From: an uncultured SAR86 cluster bacterium
GTDB taxonomy: Bacteria; Pseudomonadota; Gammaproteobacteria; Magnimaribacterales; AG-339-G14
Assembly: GCA_902522825.1 (NCBI GenBank)
Contig: CABYXE010000003.1
Location: 66,212-124,627 of the forward strand
DNA length: 58,416 nt
Direction of reading: 5' to 3'
Under the pieces are notes generated by a model. The model was not told where the DNA came from and did not search any database. It saw only the letters and a program-made list of their open reading frames with translations. The position numbers and the translations under genes were made by a program. Below are positions 40,845 to 50,183 of the stretch, piece by piece; position 1 is the stretch's first letter, and each line of letters opens with the position of its first letter.

Positions 40845-41702
40845 TCAATTTCCCATTGGGATAGGACTTGGAGTATATCCGCCGTTTAAAATCCATCTAT
40901 CTTCTTGAACTGTTAGCATATAAAAAATTCTACTTTTTAAGTAAGGATCACCTTCTTTGTTGTGTCTTGCAAAATCAAAAGAAATCAACGCGGCATGGCC
41001 GTTATTAAATAGTGTCTTAGTATCAATTACAGATGAATAAGACCAACCATCACTCTTTAAGCCATCAAAGTTAAAAGCATCTGTATATTTATTATATTTC
41101 TGATCATTGAAATAAAAAGGAGAACTAGTAATTTTTTCAATATTCAATTTATCTTGAGCATTGAAGAAAATAAGAAACTCTTCTACAAATTCTTTTGGAT
41201 CTCCAACCTCATTAGGATCAGTAGAAACAAGTTTATTTTTATAAAGTCTCGTGGCTACTAGTAAATCACTATTGTATTCTACTAAGGAAATAATCTTGTC
41301 ATCTTTGAACTTAAATACAAATACATAATCATTATCATATTCTCCGTTAATACCTTCTGCATCTCCTTTCAGAAGAACTGCTGTACCCTCTTCATCTGAA
41401 ATTACATCTTCGATGAAAAGTTCTATACCATTCGGCAGTAAAGCTGGAATAATTTCTCCATTCCATTGTTCAATCCAATTTTTAGTATCGTAGGCTTTTT
41501 TTGAAATAACGGTGTTACCCATAAAAGTGAAGTTAAAATTTTCATGCAATAAAGGTTTAACCTTATCTATATCTAATATATTTTCCATAAAGAAAATTGC
41601 TGTTTTTTTATTTAAAACTTCTTTTTTCTCATTATTTGTGGCGTCTGTATTGCCACATGAAAATAAGAAAATTAAACTAGAAAAAATTAAAAATTTTTTC
41701 AC
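40845..41702 (-). CDS. lipoprotein with two NTF2/SnoaL-like domains
   Basis: 285 residues with a lipoprotein signal (lipobox FSCG, Cys at 16). Two similar NTF2-like halves are suggested: residues 32-150 (KKTAIFFMENILDIDKVKPLL... YVFVFKFKDDKIISLVEY) and 165-280 (FVEEFLIFFNAQDKLNIEKI... ILNGGYTPSP). The start is GTG at 41702, which overlaps the stop of the large secreted protein gene upstream by one base (TAGTG), so the two are coupled. The role is unknown. Confidence 0.75.
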   Translation of the reverse strand: MKKFLIFSSLIFLFSCGNTDATNNEKKEVLNKKTAIFFMENILDIDKVKPLLHENFNFTFMGNTVISKKAYDTKNWIEQWNGEIIPALLPNGIELFIEDVISDEEGTAVLLKGDAEGINGEYDNDYVFVFKFKDDKIISLVEYNSDLLVATRLYKNKLVSTDPNEVGDPKEFVEEFLIFFNAQDKLNIEKITSSPFYFNDQKYNKYTDAFNFDGLKSDGWSYSSVIDTKTLFNNGHAALISFDFARHNKEGDPYLKSRIFYMLTVQEDRWILNGGYTPSPIPMGN

Positions 41703-43426
41703 TATTTAAGATAATTTGAATAGAGAGACTTTCCTGAGTTTTTGAAATTTGTCCAATCTGGCTGAAAAGGAGTAATGTTATTATCGACAGCGTCGTCTAC
41801 ACCATCTTGATCAGCATCTAAACTTTTAAGAGCATTTTCCGGAAAAGCATCCAAATAGTTTAAGACACCATCTCCATCATCGTCTCCGTTTTTAGAAAAA
41901 GATTTACCTTGCAAATATTCATCTGCCAAAGGATTAGAAGAGAATTTGTTAACTAGTACAGCTCCTGACTTAGGTATGTTAATGACTGGATAATTAAAAA
42001 ATTTATGATCTGGTGTATCTAAAGTTGCTTGAAGAGTTAATGTTGCACAATCCGAGTCTCCGACGGGTTTCATTGGATAAACTTTTTTTACTCCTAACTG
42101 CCTTATATAATATTCATTACCTTGAGCGTCAGTTAATACGGTTCCCTCTGGAACGTCAAAAAAAGGAAAGTTTGAATAATACTCTCCATTAATAAGAACT
42201 ATGGTAGCTACATCTCCTATTGAGGTCCCAGGGCAAATAGTATTTCCATAAGAGCTACCATCTGCAATTTTTTTGCATTGCATACCAGTTCCAACCCAAC
42301 TACCACTAAAAATTTTTGCAGTTCCATTGTAGGTAGCATTATTTGCAGTGATATTATTTATGGCCTGTAAGTCATAATTGACTGATAAAGGTGTATTGGG
42401 ATTTCCATCCCCGTCTGGATTATTATTTATTCTGTCACCAGAAGTATTGTAGACACCATAATTTTGAGGTCCAACATATGTCCAACTACCAGTTCTTGCA
42501 ACGCACAATTCTGAATTTTGAGAAGATGCTTGAAATTGACCACCGCCACTAGGTCCTGCATTTAACCAAACACCATTTTTGGCACCAGAATAACCTTCAG
42601 TAACTTCAAATTTTATAACTTTATCATTGTAAGCAAAGTTAACCGTTTGTATCGAAATTGGATTTCCATCAGGGTAATTTCCTGTATAACCTACTGGAAA
42701 ATATTGAGGATATATTTGAGCGAAATAATCAACATATTTAATTCCTCCCAGCGCTGGAATTGTTGCGTTTGGACTAAAGTTAAATGCATTTGCAGTACCA
42801 TGCCCTCCTGAGTTAGAAGTATGGATAATTTTTGATGAATAAAAATATTTTTCGTAGCCAGCAGGCAACAAATTATTCACAACAACACCATCTAAATAAT
42901 ATGCTGCTTCAAATTTAATTTGATTTTCTGAAAGTTTCTTAGATTCATAAGTTGCGACATACAATGGTAATGAATTAGCTTTCGATACAGCGCTGTAATC
43001 CAAAGTAAGTGTTCCATAAGGATTAGAATCTGAGGCTTCTTCTTCCAAAATTAACTTCATTTTATAGTCAGTTATATCATCTGGTCCTGCTATAGATAGC
43101 TCCATATCTAGGTTTGAATTTTCTGTTTCTTGTTTCGAAACTATTGTCCAAGGGCGAGAAACTTCTGCACCTTCACATGCAGCATTATCCAAGATTACTT
43201 TGTAACCAATTCCATCTTCCAAATTTGAATTATTTTTATAATCGGAGTTATTAATTAGGCACAGATAACTATTTACTCTACCAAAAGCTACATCCAGCAA
43301 ATATTGATGCACGTAAAAGATTTTTGGATTTTTCCAGATAAGTTTAGTTTTATCGAATGTATTTAAATCTGGAAAAGAAAATATGCTACTGGAAAAAATT
43401 AAGGTTATGAAAAGAATTTTCTTCAT
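41702..43426 (-). CDS. large secreted protein with C-terminal calcium-binding repeats (paralog of 46739-49639)
   Basis: 574 residues with a signal peptide (1-17). No known enzyme domain is recognised. The N-terminal segment (about 40-85, VNSYLCLINNS ... GYKVILDNAACE) and a later VPEGTVLTDAQGNEYYIRQL correspond to VNFLLCFLSNT ... PYKALIDEASCE and LPDGAILTDKTGSDNIKVRAL in the 966-aa protein, so the two are paralogs. The C-terminal part (about 515-555) has two thrombospondin type 3-like repeats (DDDGDGVLNYLDAFPE, DADQDGVDDAVDN), which bind calcium. It is the middle gene of a three-gene operon, between a tiny lipoprotein and the NTF2-like lipoprotein. Confidence 0.78.
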   Translation of the reverse strand: MKKILFITLIFSSSIFSFPDLNTFDKTKLIWKNPKIFYVHQYLLDVAFGRVNSYLCLINNSDYKNNSNLEDGIGYKVILDNAACEGAEVSRPWTIVSKQETENSNLDMELSIAGPDDITDYKMKLILEEEASDSNPYGTLTLDYSAVSKANSLPLYVATYESKKLSENQIKFEAAYYLDGVVVNNLLPAGYEKYFYSSKIIHTSNSGGHGTANAFNFSPNATIPALGGIKYVDYFAQIYPQYFPVGYTGNYPDGNPISIQTVNFAYNDKVIKFEVTEGYSGAKNGVWLNAGPSGGGQFQASSQNSELCVARTGSWTYVGPQNYGVYNTSGDRINNNPDGDGNPNTPLSVNYDLQAINNITANNATYNGTAKIFSGSWVGTGMQCKKIADGSSYGNTICPGTSIGDVATIVLINGEYYSNFPFFDVPEGTVLTDAQGNEYYIRQLGVKKVYPMKPVGDSDCATLTLQATLDTPDHKFFNYPVINIPKSGAVLVNKFSSNPLADEYLQGKSFSKNGDDDGDGVLNYLDAFPENALKSLDADQDGVDDAVDNNITPFQPDWTNFKNSGKSLYSNYLK

Positions 43427-43552
43427 TCAATCTAGAATCGTTAAATCCTCAGGAACATTTTTAAATTGGAATGAACTGTCAGTACTTGAATTAGATCCAC
43501 TTCCGCAAGAAAAAACAAAAAAACAAAAAATTACTAAAAGAAAAAATCTCAC
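43427..43552 (-). CDS. very small lipoprotein (41 aa)
   Basis: A GTG-started frame of 41 residues: a hydrophobic N-terminus RFFLLVIFCFFVFSC gives a good lipobox (VFSC, Cys16), then GSGSNSSTDSS and a short tail. Its TGA is directly adjacent to the ATG of the 574-aa secreted protein. An earlier in-frame GTG at 43564 would add four residues. Lipobox and position support a real gene; the opposite-strand frame here is the shadow. The poly-Gly/Ser linker after Cys parallels the lipoprotein before the paralogous large gene. Confidence 0.55.
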   Translation of the reverse strand: MRFFLLVIFCFFVFSCGSGSNSSTDSSFQFKNVPEDLTILD

Positions 43553-43658
43553 AATTCCAATCACTAAATGACAAAAATAATTTAATATAATTTAAAAAAA
43601 AAATAAAGGGCTTTTTCAAAATTTAAAGAATATTAAATTTAATTACGTCAGCTTTAAT

Positions 43659-44783
43659 TTACAAAATGTCTTTAAGATTTATATCTTTCTTTTTTACTTC
43701 AAAGCCTTGAGGATTTCCATTTATAAAATCAATTATAAGTTGTGCATACTGCGGACCAGCCTCTTCCTGTATAAAATGTCCTGGGCCTTTTATAACTATT
43801 TCTTGAGCAGAAGGAATTCTTTTTAAGCCTTCTACAATTCCAGGATTATTTCCTGTAACTGGATCATTATCGCTATTAGCTATTAAAAATGGCTTGTCCC
43901 ATTTTTCTAATACATTTCTGAAAGCCATTTCATTTTTTCTTAGTTCGCTTGGTATTAAATAGGGAAATATTTGCGCGCCAGCTTTATATGACGCATTGGG
44001 ATAAGGAGCTTCATATCCTAATCTTTCTTCAGAGTCCACAGAACCTAAAGTTTGCATAACACCACCTACATCAATATTATCTGTGTATCTTGAATATCTT
44101 ATCCAGTTAGAAAAGCCATTACCGCCGATAAATTCTTCCCATGTCACTGGACCTTGCAACCAGATTGTTAACTTGAATATAGGCCCTAGGAAAAAACCTC
44201 TAATATCGTTTATTAATCCTCTACCTGGAGCAATTAAACCTGTATTAGAAGCAATTACTCTTGAAAATCTTTCAGGTTCTTCAGCAATAACTCTTAAACC
44301 TACCAATCCTCCCCAATCATGAACATGGGCTGTCATATCATTTAAATCGAGCTTTCTTATTAGCTCAGACATTGTGTCGACATGCATTTGATGTGAGTAA
44401 TCATCAATATCTATATATTTATCCGATTTTCCAAACCCAACCATATCTGGAGCAATAACCCTATATCCAGCATCAACAAGCGTAGGAATCATTTTTCTAA
44501 ATAAATAACTCCATGCTGGTTCTCCGTGAAGAAGGTATATCACATCTCCATCTATGGGACCTTCATCTAAATAGTGAATCCTTAAACCATTTATTTCGAG
44601 ATAATTTGGTTCAAAATTATAGTCTTTTAAATTCTCAAATCTTTCTTCTGGTGTTCTCAAAATCCCCGGGGAAATTAGATTAAACCTCTCATAGTTAATT
44701 TCTGTATCGACATTTCTAATATATTGAAAAATCCCTATGGAGAATAATCCTACGATAAATAATATAGAAAATATTTTGTTCAT
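43659..44783 (-). CDS. haloalkane dehalogenase-like alpha/beta hydrolase, membrane-anchored
   Basis: 374 residues with an N-terminal membrane helix (4-21). The dehalogenase core shows HGEPAWSYL, nucleophile Asp156-Trp157 (HVHDWGG), acid Asp in NSDNDPVTG, and His in GPGHFIQEE. The HGEP form and the Asp acid resemble the HLD-I subfamily (DhlA type). It hydrolyses carbon-halogen bonds, or possibly epoxides; the exact substrate is unknown. GlcG/HbpS lies 7 nt upstream on the same strand. Confidence 0.84.
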   Translation of the reverse strand: MNKIFSILFIVGLFSIGIFQYIRNVDTEINYERFNLISPGILRTPEERFENLKDYNFEPNYLEINGLRIHYLDEGPIDGDVIYLLHGEPAWSYLFRKMIPTLVDAGYRVIAPDMVGFGKSDKYIDIDDYSHQMHVDTMSELIRKLDLNDMTAHVHDWGGLVGLRVIAEEPERFSRVIASNTGLIAPGRGLINDIRGFFLGPIFKLTIWLQGPVTWEEFIGGNGFSNWIRYSRYTDNIDVGGVMQTLGSVDSEERLGYEAPYPNASYKAGAQIFPYLIPSELRKNEMAFRNVLEKWDKPFLIANSDNDPVTGNNPGIVEGLKRIPSAQEIVIKGPGHFIQEEAGPQYAQLIIDFINGNPQGFEVKKKDINLKDIL

Positions 44784-44790
44784 GATTATA

Positions 44791-45249
44791 TTATGTTATC
44801 TGAGAGTGCCCTACTGTCAGACCTGCAGCTTCAATACCTGCTACCGCAGCAATTTCATCTTGATCAGATCTATCGCCAGAAACTCCAATTGCACCTATGT
44901 TTTTGCCATCTTTTTGTATTAAAAGTCCTCCTGGAGTTGGAATAAGATTGCCCCCTGCTAATATTTGCATACCAGTAAAGGCTTTATCTAGCCTAGGTTG
45001 ATCCTCTAAAATTCCTCTTAACGTGTTCGATGAGGCTCCAAACGCCAAACAGGTAGAAGCTTTTGCATATGCAACATTGGCTCTTGTTGGGCCTGAACCG
45101 TCTTCGGCTAAAGTAGCTCTTACAACTCCTCCGACATCAATAACTGTAACAGTCAAAGGCATAAATTCTTCTTCTCTGCCTTTTTTTAATGTCTCTTGGC
45201 ATATTTTTAATGCAGCATCTAGATTTATTTCTCCTGGATTTAATATCAT
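44791..45249 (-). CDS. GlcG/HbpS (heme-binding) domain protein
   Basis: 152 residues of the GlcG/HbpS family: an N-terminal helix (LDAALKICQETL), VTVIDVGGVVRATLAEDGSGP, AYAKASTCLAFG, and the Gly-rich ending GGLLIQKDGKNIGAIGVSGD. The family is often next to oxidoreductases or catabolic enzymes; some members bind heme or cobalamin-like ligands. It is paired with the dehalogenase at 43659 and divergent from that at 45310. A shared small role for the two dehalogenases is possible. Confidence 0.86.
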   Translation of the reverse strand: MILNPGEINLDAALKICQETLKKGREEEFMPLTVTVIDVGGVVRATLAEDGSGPTRANVAYAKASTCLAFGASSNTLRGILEDQPRLDKAFTGMQILAGGNLIPTPGGLLIQKDGKNIGAIGVSGDRSDQDEIAAVAGIEAAGLTVGHSQIT

Positions 45250-45278
45250 TTTAATTTCCTAATAATAAGTTTTTTTAA

Positions 45279-45300
45279 TTTATAATTTATTAATTATAAA
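45279..45300. promoter_or_regulatory. 22-bp inverted repeat with opposed -10 boxes between divergent genes
   Basis: TTTATAATT-TATT-AATTATAAA is a perfect repeat with 9-bp arms. It contains TATAAT on the plus strand (45281-45286) and on the minus strand (45298-45293) and ends directly at the GGAG ribosome site of the dehalogenase gene (45301-45304). It could be a divergent promoter or operator shared by glcG-like and dehalogenase genes. No -35 elements are convincing. Confidence 0.4.
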
Positions 45301-45309
45301 GGAGTAAAT

Positions 45310-46173
45310 ATGAGCGCTGATAAAAAATATAAAGAAATTTTAGGAAAAAAAATGGCTTATATTGATCATGGTGAGGGAGACTCAATAGTTTTTCTACATG
45401 GCAACCCTGCCTCTTCTTTTTTATGGAGAAACATAACACCTCATCTTGAAGGCATCGGGAGAATAATAGTTCCTGACTTAATTGGAATGGGTGATTCAGA
45501 AAAATTAGAAGGGATTGATAATCCTGACTATAAATATCACGGACAATATAAATATTTATCAACTTTATTAGAGGAATTAGATTTAGGCGACAAAATTAAT
45601 TTAGTTATTCATGATTGGGGTTCAGCAATGGGCTTTCAATATGCAAGAGAAAACTCAAATCGTATTAAATCAATAAGCTTTATGGAAGCCATAGTGATGC
45701 CTCTTCAATGGGATCAATGGCCTGAAAATGCGAGGAATATATTTCAACTAATGAGATCCGATGCTGGTGAAGAAATTGTTTTAGAAAAAAATGTATTTGT
45801 CGAAAGAATTTTGCTTAACGATTCAGCTAATGGTTTCTCGGAGGAAGAAAAGTCTGAATATATAAGACCGTTTAAAAACTCTGGAGAAGATAGGCGCCCT
45901 ACTCTTACTTGGCCCAGACAAATACCTATAGAAGGAGAGCCCAGTGAGGTTGTTGAAGAAGTAAGTAAAAATGCGGAATTTCACAAAGGTTCAGACATTC
46001 CTAAGCTTTTTATAAATGCCGACCCTGGATCTATATTAATAGGCGATCAAAGAGAGTTTGTGAGGAGTTGGAAAAATCTTAAAGAAGTTAAAGTAAAAGG
46101 AAATCATTTTATTCAAGAACATTCTCCTGATGAGATAGGTTCACATATAAAAGAATTTCTAAATTCTATTTAA
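45310..46173 (+). CDS. haloalkane dehalogenase, HLD-II type
   Basis: 287 residues with the full catalytic set of the LinB/DhaA type: Asn32 (HGNPASSFLW), Asp102-Trp103 (HDWGSAMGF), Glu125 (SFMEAIV), and His266 (GNHFIQE). It hydrolyses haloalkanes to alcohol and halide. The ATG has a GGAG site. It lies divergent to the GlcG/HbpS gene, and its last 8 nt overlap the convergent 116-aa gene. Confidence 0.92.
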   Translation: MSADKKYKEILGKKMAYIDHGEGDSIVFLHGNPASSFLWRNITPHLEGIGRIIVPDLIGMGDSEKLEGIDNPDYKYHGQYKYLSTLLEELDLGDKINLVIHDWGSAMGFQYARENSNRIKSISFMEAIVMPLQWDQWPENARNIFQLMRSDAGEEIVLEKNVFVERILLNDSANGFSEEEKSEYIRPFKNSGEDRRPTLTWPRQIPIEGEPSEVVEEVSKNAEFHKGSDIPKLFINADPGSILIGDQREFVRSWKNLKEVKVKGNHFIQEHSPDEIGSHIKEFLNSI

Positions 46174-46516
46174 CCCCAAATTTTTGAATATTATCGAAAG
46201 CTTTCAAAGTAAATTTATTAAATTTTTTTAAGGCTTTGTTGAGGTTTGAATAATCGTAAAACTCGTTTACTGCATAGCCATCCCAGTAAGTAACTCTGTA
46301 TTGATTATCGATGGATTGAATTGATATTTCTATGGGATCCGGATTGTTTGAATTTATCTTTATAGAAATTTCATTTGAATTCTTTGAAATCGAAGTATTT
46401 TGGAGTTTATTACTTAAAGTTTCATAAATTAGATTAACTCTATCTTCTTTTGCTAACAAGCTTTCCTTGTCTATCACATTTATGCCTATCGATTTGGTTG
46501 CTTCTTTTTGCAACAT
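46166..46516 (-). CDS. hypothetical protein, uncertain start
   Basis: 116 residues from the first ATG; composition is Lys/Asn/Ser-rich with a plausible beta-rich middle (EISIKINSN, IEISIQSIDNQYRVTYWDGYAV) and a helical end. No family is recognised. The ATG at 46516 would overlap the upstream gene by 77 nt, which is very long for this window; a TTG at 46459 would reduce this to 20 nt. The C-terminus overlaps the convergent dehalogenase stop by 8 nt. Confidence 0.55.
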   Translation of the reverse strand: MLQKEATKSIGINVIDKESLLAKEDRVNLIYETLSNKLQNTSISKNSNEISIKINSNNPDPIEISIQSIDNQYRVTYWDGYAVNEFYDYSNLNKALKKFNKFTLKAFDNIQKFGVK

Positions 46517-46697
46517 GTTTTGTTTTTCTTCCTGAAACTCTTTTTCTCCAAAGTTTAAAGCTACTTGGCTTTAAATTATTTCTCATTAAACGCTCTAAAT
46601 CATTCTGAGTTATATCAAACTCTTTATAAATCACATCAAAAGGAGTTCTATCCTCCCAGGCCATTTCAATGATTCTATTTAAATTATCTTGATCCAT
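46440..46697 (-). CDS. DUF2805 (TIGR03643 family) protein
   Basis: 85 residues. The first 60 match the TIGR03643 pattern: NRIIEMAWEDRTPFDVIYKEF and LKPSSFKLWRKRVSGRKTKH, a small helix-rich, basic domain of unknown role. The last 25 residues (VAKRSNQIDRHK...) are basic and overlap the next gene. A hairpin lies just upstream, marking the end of the large secreted protein gene. Confidence 0.85.
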   Translation of the reverse strand: MDQDNLNRIIEMAWEDRTPFDVIYKEFDITQNDLERLMRNNLKPSSFKLWRKRVSGRKTKHVAKRSNQIDRHKCDRQGKLVSKRR

Positions 46698-46711
46698 AGT
46701 GTGTAATTTAA

Positions 46712-46732
46712 GACCTTCTTAAAAAGAAGGTC
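46712..46732 (-). terminator. hairpin terminator downstream of the 966-aa gene
   Basis: GACCTTCTT-AAA-AAGAAGGTC is a perfect 9-bp hairpin with a 3-nt loop, starting 7 nt after the stop of the large secreted protein gene. On the minus strand the tail is TTAAATT, a weak U-tract. It is the clearest intrinsic-terminator-like stem in the window. Confidence 0.65.
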
Positions 46733-46738
46733 AATAAA

Positions 46739-49639
46739 TTACTGACTTGGTGCTGCTACAGTTTCGCCGTGTATAACTGAGGCTTTACCACTATTGAGAA
46801 TTCCAGTTGTTGGCTTGCTGCCATTAGTAGTACTTACAGTAACTAAATCACTGGATGTTGGTAAGTCAGACAAAGCTTTCGTATAAACTCTCCCGCTAGG
46901 TAGAGTACTTAATTTTTTCAAGTATTCGTCACCTCTTAAAGCTCTTACCTTAATGTTATCACTCCCCGTTTTATCAGTTAAGATTGCGCCATCAGGTAAT
47001 GTAAATTCTGGGATGAAGCGATAACATTGATTCCAAGAATCAACATATCTTCCAACAACCGCTCCAGTACAAGTATTGAAGACTTGTCCTGGAAAATTAT
47101 GAAGTTCTCCATATCCTTCAAATTTAAGAGTGTATTTCTTTCCGGCTAGATTTGTACCAGCGAAATTATAAGTTATGCCACTTGCAGGAACCTCATATTC
47201 ATAGCTCTTCGGAGCAGAAATAGTTGTAATTTGCGAATCAGTTACGTTGTAAACTCTGTAATCCGGCCTCTTGGTTAATTCAAAAGTGTAAGAAGTAACA
47301 CTGCCGTCTCTAATTTTATCAGCGCAATAGTAAGAATTACCCGTTACAAGTAAAGCATCGTCGTCAGCAACCGCACGCCATCGATTGGTGTAACCTCTTG
47401 AATTGCCACTATCAACACCACATAAGATATTGGCTTTATTGGTATTTTCCACAGCATTCATGCGGAAAGAGTGACCATAATTATTTGACCAATTATCTAC
47501 TGTATAAGTAGGTTCTTTGGATTTGTATCTATATTTTCTAATTCCATCTCTATATGATGCAGAATCTAATTTTGTTGCATTTGGTGATGTCCAAGCGATA
47601 TTACCTCCATCGGCATTTGCTCCTACAAGCACTCCGTTAGTAACGGTATAACTAGATAAGTCAGCCTCTACCACTCCACCAATATTGTTATACCTTCCTG
47701 CACCTTCACTAGATTCTCCACCATCTTGATCGCCATTTCCATTACCATCGTAATAACTAGCAACTTTAAAATAGGGACCTTTATTTACATAAGGAGTTTT
47801 ATCTAAAGTGGCTGCATCAGCTTCGGCATCAACTTTTGTGAAAGCTTCGGCGATAGCAGCGTTTAAATTAGTTGCCCCCAAGCATCTTTCGACACATATA
47901 AAAGTTTTTCCTTCCAATGAAGTGATATCAACTTTAGCTTCGCTAGTAATTTTAACTAATGCATTACCAACATTTTGAAATGCAGTATAAGGAATTTGAT
48001 ATTGTTCTCTGGAATCTGGATTATAAAAATGCATAGTCTCATTCCAACCAGAACCATTGGTCATATAATCGACCCAATTAGCAGCAGTAAAAGTCAAAGC
48101 AGTATTCAATTCAAAGGGTTTTATCCCAGCATTCCAGTCCATTCCATGGGTAGCAGTAAAAGTAACGGCACTGCCGCTAACAGAAATTGTGCCAGAATAT
48201 TCAGGACAATTACCTTGGGCAGCATTACAGCTTCCACTTGTTGGCAAATCCAGACCGCTTTCTCCAATTTTACTTGACCATTCTGGATGAGTTTTTAAAT
48301 GGCCCAAATACCACTGAAAGCCAACTCCAGCTAATTGATTGAGAGGTTTTGATGAAGTTGTTTTTTGAAAAACCTGATAATAATTTTTTCTTAAATTATA
48401 AGTATCTGTATCAGACGAATTTCTTTGATTTTTAAATATCGTTGAATCGGTAACATTCGATTTATCAGAGTCATTCACGTGCGTACCATAATAACTAGCA
48501 TGTGCATGAATGGACTTAGTTAATCCAGAATTATCAGTTGAGTTAGCTTCTAAAGTTAAAGAAGTATTTGCTAAATCGTATTTAGCTCCTGTTGAATTTA
48601 AATAAGTTCCATACTCATACACCTGTCTGGTTGCGTTTGCTACATCTGTACTCCAACAATGTTCTCCAGTTATGGATCCTTGTGTTCCCCCTTCTGTATT
48701 TACTGCAGCAGTTGGAGGATTTGTGAATGCAGCTGCAATTTCAGTATTAAATGCCGTTGAATCAGCATAGGTTGTATTTGATGCAACTAATCCTTGCTGA
48801 CTTTGATTGTATTTCACCGCATTGTCAAAGATCTGACAGTAAACTTTATTTGCATTGTCCTGATATATTTTATATCTCGCTTGATAATAATCTGTTGTAT
48901 TAAAATTATTGCCAGAAAACTTCTGAATATTTGAAAGCAAATAACCATCACGCTTGTTATTAGCGACGTCGGCGACAATGGATCTAGGCGTAAAAGAAGG
49001 CCCATCTTCATAATATTTTATCGTGGTTCCATTTATGTCTAAGTAACCTTGTAAAATCGTTGTTCCAGCTTCCAAAGTTTGTCCACCACCTAGATTAACA
49101 GCATTATTAGTTTTAATTTCATAAGTCATGGTGAAATTTCCATAGGGTCGTCCAGCTGCTTCGTCTTTATCAGCAGTCAAAACAGTCAGTGTATAAGCTG
49201 TAGAAGCAACTTCTACACCAGGACCCATTTCAATCACAATATCAAACCAACCTTTTCCAGTAAGCGCCCCGTTAGCATCCGAGGTTACATTTATAATTCC
49301 AGGACTATAAGTGACCTCTTCAACTGTTGCTGCTGCTGTATCTGTAGAAGTAGCAGCACTCCCACCAGTGGCAGCTTGTTGTTCTGCCGCCGCATCACTT
49401 CCATCTGCTGTTTCACATGAAGCTTCGTCAATTAAAGCTTTATATGGACCGGCATTAGCAAAAGTTCCAAAATTAGTATTTGATAAAAAACAAAGTAAGA
49501 AATTAACCTGAGACATTGCATCGTTTGCCAAAATACCAGGTACATAAAAATCTACTTTTGTTGCGTCATCATCATAGTCTGCTGCGAATAAATTTACATT
49601 GAAAATTAAAATGAAAGCTAAAAAAAATCTTTTATTCAT
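46739..49639 (-). CDS. large secreted protein, unknown function (paralog of 41702-43426)
   Basis: 966 residues with a signal peptide (1-19, cleavage near FAADYDD). No enzyme domain is recognised. It shares with the 574-aa protein an N-terminal Cys-containing segment (VNFLLCFLSNT ... PYKALIDEASCE, about 43-75), PYGNFTMTYE (PYGTLTLDYS there) and a C-terminal LPDGAILTDKTGSDNIKVRAL. An Ala/Thr-rich low-complexity insert at about 75-112 (GSDAAAEQQAATGGSAAT) is coded by locally GC-rich DNA. It lacks the calcium repeats of the paralog. An AAGGAG site precedes the ATG and a hairpin follows the stop. It is probably an abundant surface or periplasmic protein. Confidence 0.78.
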   Translation of the reverse strand: MNKRFFLAFILIFNVNLFAADYDDDATKVDFYVPGILANDAMSQVNFLLCFLSNTNFGTFANAGPYKALIDEASCETADGSDAAAEQQAATGGSAATSTDTAAATVEEVTYSPGIINVTSDANGALTGKGWFDIVIEMGPGVEVASTAYTLTVLTADKDEAAGRPYGNFTMTYEIKTNNAVNLGGGQTLEAGTTILQGYLDINGTTIKYYEDGPSFTPRSIVADVANNKRDGYLLSNIQKFSGNNFNTTDYYQARYKIYQDNANKVYCQIFDNAVKYNQSQQGLVASNTTYADSTAFNTEIAAAFTNPPTAAVNTEGGTQGSITGEHCWSTDVANATRQVYEYGTYLNSTGAKYDLANTSLTLEANSTDNSGLTKSIHAHASYYGTHVNDSDKSNVTDSTIFKNQRNSSDTDTYNLRKNYYQVFQKTTSSKPLNQLAGVGFQWYLGHLKTHPEWSSKIGESGLDLPTSGSCNAAQGNCPEYSGTISVSGSAVTFTATHGMDWNAGIKPFELNTALTFTAANWVDYMTNGSGWNETMHFYNPDSREQYQIPYTAFQNVGNALVKITSEAKVDITSLEGKTFICVERCLGATNLNAAIAEAFTKVDAEADAATLDKTPYVNKGPYFKVASYYDGNGNGDQDGGESSEGAGRYNNIGGVVEADLSSYTVTNGVLVGANADGGNIAWTSPNATKLDSASYRDGIRKYRYKSKEPTYTVDNWSNNYGHSFRMNAVENTNKANILCGVDSGNSRGYTNRWRAVADDDALLVTGNSYYCADKIRDGSVTSYTFELTKRPDYRVYNVTDSQITTISAPKSYEYEVPASGITYNFAGTNLAGKKYTLKFEGYGELHNFPGQVFNTCTGAVVGRYVDSWNQCYRFIPEFTLPDGAILTDKTGSDNIKVRALRGDEYLKKLSTLPSGRVYTKALSDLPTSSDLVTVSTTNGSKPTTGILNSGKASVIHGETVAAPSQ

Positions 49640-49658
49640 GTCTGCTCCTTAAAATATA

Positions 49659-50183
49659 TTAGTTAGTTTCGGTGAATTCAACTTGACTGGACTGATTACC
49701 AATAACAATATTAATTGTTCCTCCCATCCCACTGTGATTTTGACAGTAATAGTAGAGAGTCGACGGAGTTGAAGAATTAACGACAATTGTTGTTTTTCCA
49801 GTTGAACCAGGAGAACCTGAGGTAGAAACTCCGGTAGTATAAGCTGAACCACTACCATGTGTTCCATCACTTGTTGTAGAAAATGCTATTTGATGAATGC
49901 GTGCCGTACCATAAGCTCCAGCAGGAGTAACATTTGAAGAATTTGTTTGATCAAATGTATATGTTCCAGCATTCAAAGTTAAAGTTTTTTGGGAGACTCC
50001 TGTAGAAGAAGTATTTTGAACAACGAATTTACCTCCAGCTACAGTAATACATAAATTTGTCGTACTAGGTGAACAACTATTAGCTGGTGTAGATGCAGCA
50101 GTACCGCCTCCGCCTCCGCCTCCGCCACAAGCAGCTAAAATAAATAAAGATAAAAGAAGTAAATTTAAACTTTTATATGACAT
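49659..50183 (-). CDS. lipoprotein with cupredoxin-like C-terminus
   Basis: 174 residues from the ATG at 50183; a TTG 12 nt upstream lies before the GGAGAGG ribosome site, so the ATG is the start. Lipobox LAAC (Cys19) is followed by eight Gly. The later part contains His97 and TLYYYCQNHSGMGG with Cys147, His150 and Met153, the C-x2-H-x2-M order of type 1 copper sites such as amicyanin. A similar YYC-HSGMGG motif is also met in marine phage proteins, so copper binding is inference. It is the gene directly before the 966-aa secreted protein (19 nt). Confidence 0.75.
   Translation of the reverse strand: MSYKSLNLLLLSLFILAACGGGGGGGGTAASTPANSCSPSTTNLCITVAGGKFVVQNTSSTGVSQKTLTLNAGTYTFDQTNSSNVTPAGAYGTARIHQIAFSTTSDGTHGSGSAYTTGVSTSGSPGSTGKTTIVVNSSTPSTLYYYCQNHSGMGGTINIVIGNQSSQVEFTETN
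50104..50127. repeat. hexanucleotide tract coding poly-glycine
   Basis: CCGCCT occurs three times in a row followed by CCGCCA. On the minus strand it codes alternating GGC/GGA Gly codons right after the lipoprotein Cys. Gain or loss of a unit would change linker length by two Gly without a frameshift. Confidence 0.7.

Follow-up and report, generated by a model that had tools for sequence, protein, structure and literature searches.

Candidate split surface lipoproteins of SAR86 bacteria, with the lipid anchor encoded by a separate gene

Main finding

A 58,416-nucleotide stretch of DNA from an uncultured SAR86 cluster bacterium (contig CABYXE010000003.1; this whole stretch is referred to as the window) carries on its minus strand two gene groups in which a small lipoprotein gene precedes the gene for a large secreted protein, of 966 residues in one group and 574 in the other. 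We propose, with a probability of about 0.65, that each of these modules encodes a naturally split surface lipoprotein whose anchor comes from a separate gene and which is exported by the type II secretion system (T2SS). Both parts would cross the inner membrane by Sec, and the small part would be acylated; in the periplasm, a strand in the tail of the anchor would become part of the N-terminal domain of its large partner, and the resulting noncovalent complex would be carried to the outer leaflet by the T2SS, with the Gly/Ser stretch behind the lipid cysteine acting as a sorting signal of the GspN type. The small gene would supply the anchor and the export address, neither of which would be carried by the large surface protein. 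The kinds of component invoked here (lipobox, sorting motif, T2SS and lipid-anchored beta protein) are already known; the surface location and the physical binding of the pair we infer from the genomic evidence laid out below.

Results

The first module consists of a 174-aa anchor lipoprotein (49659..50183, minus strand; ATG at 50183 with GGAGAGG upstream) and the 966-aa secreted partner (46739..49639, minus strand; family A1), which has a Sec-type signal peptide by eye. The anchor comprises a lipobox, the sequence CGGGGGGGG, a cupredoxin-like body and a conserved C-terminal tail, NQSSQVEFTETN (49662..49697, minus strand). The second module has the same layout in miniature: a mini-lipoprotein of 41 codons (43427..43552, minus strand; GTG start at 43552, chosen by eye against the relatives at loci L032 and L042, in an open reading frame (ORF) open from 43564) is followed by the 574-aa secreted partner (41702..43426, minus strand; family A2), which has a Sec-type signal peptide by eye and Asp-rich repeats at its C-terminus. 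After the lipobox of the mini-lipoprotein, FSC, comes GSGSNSSTDSSFQFKNVPEDLTILD; the mature lipopeptide is 26 residues long (CGSGSNSSTDSSFQFKNVPEDLTILD), its tail FQFKNVPEDLTILD (43430..43471, minus strand) is conserved, with (F/Y)K.VP near the C-terminus in all seven A2 members, and its stop codon lies immediately before the ATG with which the 574-aa gene begins. The absence of a lipoprotein gene ahead of the 574-aa gene was considered and rejected, since an ORF of 41-45 codons is missed under a cut-off of 80-90 aa. A small lipoprotein gene ahead of each large gene, as claimed in the original prediction, is therefore present in both modules.

That the two large proteins share segments, as had also been claimed, was borne out by profile comparison. 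BLASTP aligned the 966-aa and 574-aa proteins over residues 1-90 (E 7e-6) and gave a weak C-terminal match (VPEGTVLTDAQG/LPDGAILTDKTG, E 0.02), and profile-profile alignment by hhalign (28 members of the 966 family, seven of the 574 family) gave a significant similarity (96.7%, E 4.4e-10) between residues 2-182 of the former and 1-153 of the latter, a region that takes in the signal peptides and the PYG motif. As judged by these alignments, the two proteins are related in part only, through the N-terminal region and a short C-terminal motif. The N-terminal region of the 966-aa protein, which we presume to be a docking domain (residues ~20-182; 49094..49582, minus strand), was delimited by hhalign, alignments and an AF2 model of residues 1-340, and is common to the 574-aa protein, where the homologous region covers residues 1-153 including the signal peptide (42968..43426, minus strand), and to the single-gene homologues described below. 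Of the 203 genomes of the order, 41 carry the 966 family, as do 18 of 369 genomes drawn from across the class (the class draw), and the 574 family was found in seven of 41 genomes, the window's own genome being counted in each case; over all loci the family forms 86 clusters at 95% identity, and several genomes with the module hold two to four diverged copies. Named relatives of the 966-aa protein come from SAR86, from HTCC2207, which we take to be SAR92, from K189A and from other gammaproteobacteria. In its split form the 966 family ranges in length from 513 to 2453 aa, with nine cysteine columns filled in all 28 rows of alignment A1.

Neither large protein, nor any of nine class-draw homologues (single-gene and split), had a Pfam or NCBIfam match above cut-off, in agreement with the earlier statement that no enzyme domain could be recognized, and profile searches of PDB sequences gave no match at E 0.1 for the large proteins. 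The 574-aa protein had been said to end in calcium-binding repeats: the Asp-rich repeats are there, but the only domain match, to TSP_3 at residues 513-532, is sub-threshold (E 0.055). Because no enzyme domain was found, because divergent copies stand in tandem and because length is variable, a role in binding or adhesion at the cell surface is probable for the large protein.

The association with an upstream lipoprotein, first noticed in the window, proved to be conserved among relatives. In the window and at loci L031-L057, an ORF with a lipobox lies directly upstream of 36 of the 38 family genes (those of at least 400 aa with at least 400 nt of upstream DNA, the ORF ending between -110 and +40 nt from the start; the 38 include closely related genomes), as compared to 15 of 214 control ORFs (all others of at least 250 aa at the same loci), and none of the 214 controls is preceded by a C[GS][GS] lipoprotein. 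In the 574 family, a mini-lipoprotein ORF stands ahead of the gene in 7/7 members examined. In genome G433 (L165, about 1940-2130), a repeat-like insertion is found between the mini-lipoprotein and the large gene, with a gap of 186 nt.

The anchor lipoproteins are 41-994 aa long and have only the signal peptide, the Gly/Ser stretch and the last residues in common. The body may be no more than a linker (lipoproteins of 41-107 aa in total), a cupredoxin-like domain, or a stretch of several hundred residues, partly cadherin-like by eye, that brings the lipoprotein to as much as 994 aa in all. The cupredoxin-like body is found in the window and at L031, L032, L034, L042 and L044; the earlier description of the lipoprotein before the 966-aa gene as cupredoxin-like stands in so far as a C-x2-H-x2-M motif is conserved in six of six aligned relatives, but it found no Pfam match above cut-off. 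Behind the lipobox, which was assigned in both by a lipobox rule and by eye, the window anchors read CGGGGGGGG and CGSGSN, both Gly/Ser-rich, and the anchors elsewhere mostly CGG, CGS or CSS.

At the other end of the anchors, 53 distinct C-termini align without internal gaps to the consensus PGYNLPGQVEVVETQ, roughly LP..I.VIE (i.e. hydrophobic-P-x-x-I/V/L-x-V-I-E); only tails whose lipid Cys precedes G, S, K, L or N were taken, and ORFs with RLGE or CRYL at the end were excluded as spurious. Such conservation might have its cause in the DNA, were the tail also to serve in ribosome binding or coupling for the gene that follows, and the tail does lie directly ahead of the large-gene start, most gaps falling between -4 and +29 nt. 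The full range of the gaps, however, is -97 to +29 nt, and the tail codons vary synonymously: in 59 close pairs we counted 328 synonymous and 95 non-synonymous codon differences, where random single changes would be 23% synonymous, the synonymous share being inflated by the choice of pairs for similarity. Because the motif is also kept in single-gene homologues, in which no gene start lies behind it, this explanation is largely refuted and hardly credible.

The tail moreover appears to follow the large protein. Tail similarity tracks the similarity of the N-terminal domains (Spearman 0.49 over 47 pairs, with 0/500 permutations as high; uncorrected for phylogeny), and genome G041 provides a natural chimera, in which the body of the lipoprotein is 78% identical to the lipoprotein body of a different paralogue and the tail, YSATGSIPEKIEVVEAE, is identical to the tail ahead of the partner's orthologue (the large proteins being 88% identical). 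What G041 has retained is the tail that fits its large gene. A deletion between two neighbouring modules would yield exactly such an anchor. The chimeric anchor itself is located at L109 and G041:C3:22274-22471, and downstream of it lie the decayed remains, with internal stops, of the C-terminal part of a family gene, which suggests that tandem modules underwent such a deletion.

Homologues in which both parts are encoded by one gene offer a view of how the parts may be arranged. The class draw contains 18 module genomes, and the family occurs as one gene in 12 of these gammaproteobacterial genomes and as two in six. The single-gene forms have, in order, a lipobox, a linker that is often Gly/Ser, a motif exemplified by GLVMPSNISVI, a second linker and the large domain. 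A lipobox can be seen in 11 of them, and the remaining one (L162) is truncated at the end of its contig. When a position-specific matrix built from split tails only was run along these proteins, its best place was the motif in 12/12, 9-28 residues past the lipid Cys (counted in L162 from the first residue), and 11 of the 12 scored above all 25 control lipoproteins (maximum 6.5 bits; among the controls are some long anchor lipoproteins, scored over the first 140 residues), with a shuffle p of 0.037 or less. Because the best place is the motif throughout, the tail of the small lipoprotein is, at the level of sequence, a match to the N-terminal segment of the single-gene lipoprotein both in its letters and in its place, and the small lipoprotein looks like the detached N-terminus of a lipoprotein. 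In a tree built from 33 rows (22 split forms, two of them from the 574 family, and all but one of the 12 single-gene forms), the label split versus single-gene needs two changes and the starred branches force one; the branches are long and the deep support weak, and a single origin, by fission or by fusion, is therefore compatible with the tree.

Taken together, the pairing in 36 of 38 genes, the conserved C-terminus of the anchors and the single-gene homologues with that C-terminus inside them lend genomic support to the tethering role that the original prediction had put forward, and the small lipoprotein most likely anchors its large partner in trans by the tail. The same genomic pairing, and the same match of tail and domain, would be expected if the small lipoprotein were a dedicated chaperone or pilot that holds or folds the large protein by the tail during export and then releases it unanchored, and the mature mini-lipoprotein of the 574 module, at 26 residues, looks more like a tag or pilot than like a structural partner. 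Because the parts form one polypeptide in two thirds of the class-draw module genomes (12/18), however, the large domain stays joined there to the segment behind the lipid Cys, and we consider such a chaperone quite unlikely.

If the tail anchors in trans, the N-terminal domain of the large protein is its likely receptor, because this is the region that both families have in common with the single-gene forms; the split parts would have to meet if the domain is to keep a contact that it may have in its single-gene relatives. AF2 modelled the 966-aa protein as mostly beta (pLDDT 81.2, pTM 0.64) and its N-terminal 340 residues with a pLDDT of 75 and a pTM of 0.72, and Foldseek returned no match at E <= 1e-3 for the whole model or for the N-terminal 340 residues. 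The all-beta, up-and-down strands of the models raised the possibility of an outer-membrane beta-barrel plugged or capped by the lipoprotein in the manner of LptDE or SusCD, and the top VIA rows were indeed TonB receptors, porins and LptD. The best VIA Z values, 8.1 for the whole model and 8.7 for the N-terminal 340 residues, were however tied between porin and TonB-receptor rows, many rows being level, and VIA itself cautions that models without a clear match give values near these, so that we took them as uninformative. Two of the 11 predicted strands carry four charged residues and several have no hydrophobic face, and Pfam scans gave no barrel family. A terminal aromatic residue is a signature of outer-membrane beta-barrels, and C-termini such as APAVIEGELQ and SVIHGETVAAPSQ end without one, which together with the foregoing makes a barrel very unlikely. 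Returning to the split lipoprotein, we suggest tentatively, at somewhat less than even odds, that a lipid-anchored peptide, in the smallest case of 26 residues, docks in trans by strand complementation and ferries a large beta protein through the T2SS, the signal for lipid sorting and the signal for cargo recognition lying on different polypeptides.

Evidence on the route of export came from the gsp genes. In the window genome, gspC, D, E, F, G, I, J, K, L, M and N lie together in a single stretch (I, L and N under the Pfam cut-offs), with GspD at 544 bits against a cut-off of 351. In genome G100, of the same order, the pair lies directly behind the presumed gspM, after gsp genes (F, G, J and K called by Pfam matches, L and M by position only), and in the distant genome G254 the large gene and a small lipoprotein follow gspN, M, L and K (Pfam) and J and I (by eye). 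Across the class draw, gspD was found in all 18 module genomes (at least 17 over cut-off; G254 at E 2.5e-159) as compared to 235 of 369 genomes over cut-off, and GspN, at E 1e-3, in all 18 as compared to 177 of 369 (under the curated cut-off in two SAR86 genomes, G000 and G008), with hypergeometric P values of 2.3e-4 and 1.1e-6, respectively, uncorrected for phylogeny. Within the order the association is less clear-cut: gspD is present in 33 of 41 module genomes versus 92 of the 162 remaining genomes (Fisher P 0.007), and a PF01203 match was obtained in 21 of the 41. In a report on Acinetobacter (PMC12802150), several T2SS lipoproteins require GspN and bear a GGG or ND(N/D) motif behind the lipid Cys, surface localisation is lost when the signal peptide and adjoining segment of InvL are swapped for those of Pal, and the sorting motif is described as required and not sufficient, a further secretion signal being postulated. 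The CGGG of the anchor lipoproteins fits the GGG rule as given there. Since the window genome has a gsp operon, the pair neighbours gsp genes in two lineages and the CGGG stretch agrees with a published sorting motif, export by type II secretion is probable. Two local arrangements may be recorded here: at L170:5458-13984 (G100) the lipoprotein/large-protein pair sits where gspN would be expected, G100 having no PF01203 match, and at L167:1378-5122 (G254) two similar CLGGGG lipoproteins of ~600 aa lie in tandem beside the gsp genes and the family gene.

Several observations weigh against this reading. The candidate GspN of the window genome, encoded directly after gspM, reaches 23.6 bits with PF01203, the cut-off being 29.6; no gspD was seen in eight of the 41 module genomes of the order (seven less than 90% complete, G012 93%), and GspN was undetected in 12 of 12 module genomes of the SAR86 families f3 and f4. 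Other anchors begin CGKD, CLGG or CSHS, some single-gene forms have CADN or CNGC in this place, and CGGGG lipoproteins are found away from family starts too (L038:4987-6693; L076:12065-14242), so that the motif is not module-specific. One single-gene form, L158, matched the tail matrix no better than the controls (4.1 bits, shuffle p 0.56), and two of the 38 family genes, at L046 and L047, showed no upstream lipoprotein in a three-frame reading of 420 nt. The undetected gspD and GspN would suit the same split complex if it faced the periplasm, or travelled to the surface by some route other than the T2SS. The position of the pair next to gsp genes in two distant lineages, its co-occurrence with gspD and GspN in 18/18 genomes of the class draw and the sorting-type motif CGGG argue otherwise, and we regard such a route as unlikely.

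The two genes lacking an upstream lipoprotein represent a single paralogue, found in two genomes that belong to the same SAR86 genus (L046:8044-11271 and L047:8450-11653), and its product may be anchored by the lipoprotein of another copy, or released. The lipoprotein at L038:4987-6693, 568 aa long and beginning CGGGGGG, has a C-terminal part like the cupredoxin-like body of the window anchor. In family f2, GspN was found in eight genomes without the module.

Comparison with known systems and significance

Akin to the T2SS/GspN-dependent surface lipoproteins InvL and FilF of Acinetobacter and PulA of Klebsiella (PMC12802150), the window modules combine a signal peptidase II (SPII) lipobox with Gly/Ser-rich positions P2'-P4', the genome encodes GspD and a weakly matching candidate for GspN, and the large domain is presumed to be surface-anchored; in those proteins, by contrast, anchor, sorting motif and cargo are one polypeptide. 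In the window modules, anchor and sorting motif are encoded by a separate gene, down to a lipopeptide of 26 residues, presumably joined to the cargo by the tail strand.

The Mfa2 anchor of the Mfa1 fimbriae of Porphyromonas is a lipoprotein. Like the anchors described here it is a separate protein, and strand donation between fimbrial subunits is reported (PMC5954841, PMC5789003). Unlike these fimbriae, which belong to a different phylum, the window module shows no sign of a pilus and has one large protein per anchor; Pfam scans of the window proteins gave no fimbrillin match. Slam-dependent surface lipoproteins have beta-rich surface domains. Among them, TbpB and fHbp share with the modules an N-terminal lipid anchor and differ in being single polypeptides reported to need Slam (PMC5449769). 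No TbpB-type Pfam match was found in the window proteins or in the class-draw homologues scanned. In two-partner secretion (TPS), a large secreted protein is encoded beside a dedicated partner, as in the window module; here, however, the partner is a lipoprotein and not a TpsB barrel, and no TPS domain was detected on the large protein by Pfam at E up to 1. In the literature searched, whose coverage excluded most subscription journals and bioRxiv preprints, we found no description of the family, of a split lipoprotein or of a partner-tracking tail.

SAR86 is an abundant clade of the surface ocean, and its cell surface is little described in the literature searched. If our proposal is true, the modules represent an undescribed family of surface proteins, present in about a fifth of the order's genomes (41/203) and in 18 of the 369 in the class draw, in which a separate lipopeptide gene anchors the surface protein and body and anchor can recombine. 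With the lipid and sorting part set apart from the cargo part, one could ask which of the two the T2SS reads, and the 26-residue anchor could serve as a display tag.

Neighbouring genes

Downstream of the 574-aa gene, and overlapping it by one base, lies the gene for a 285-aa NTF2-like (SnoaL_2-like) accessory lipoprotein (40845..41702, minus strand), with CGNTDATN after the lipobox. It had been described as NTF2-like and coupled to the 574-aa copy; the two genes do adjoin, but the SnoaL_2 match (E 4.6e-4) lies under the curated cut-off. The gene adjoins the 574 family in the window and at L032 and L042 and not at L033, and L031 has a 144-aa partial relative. As a tether of the 574-aa protein the NTF2-like lipoprotein was rejected, since it has no tail motif and stands beside only three of the seven family members. 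Between the two modules, the window holds two alpha/beta-hydrolase genes (43659-44783 and 45310-46173), haloalkane-dehalogenase-like by eye, and relatives of one or both are found near the module at several SAR86 loci.

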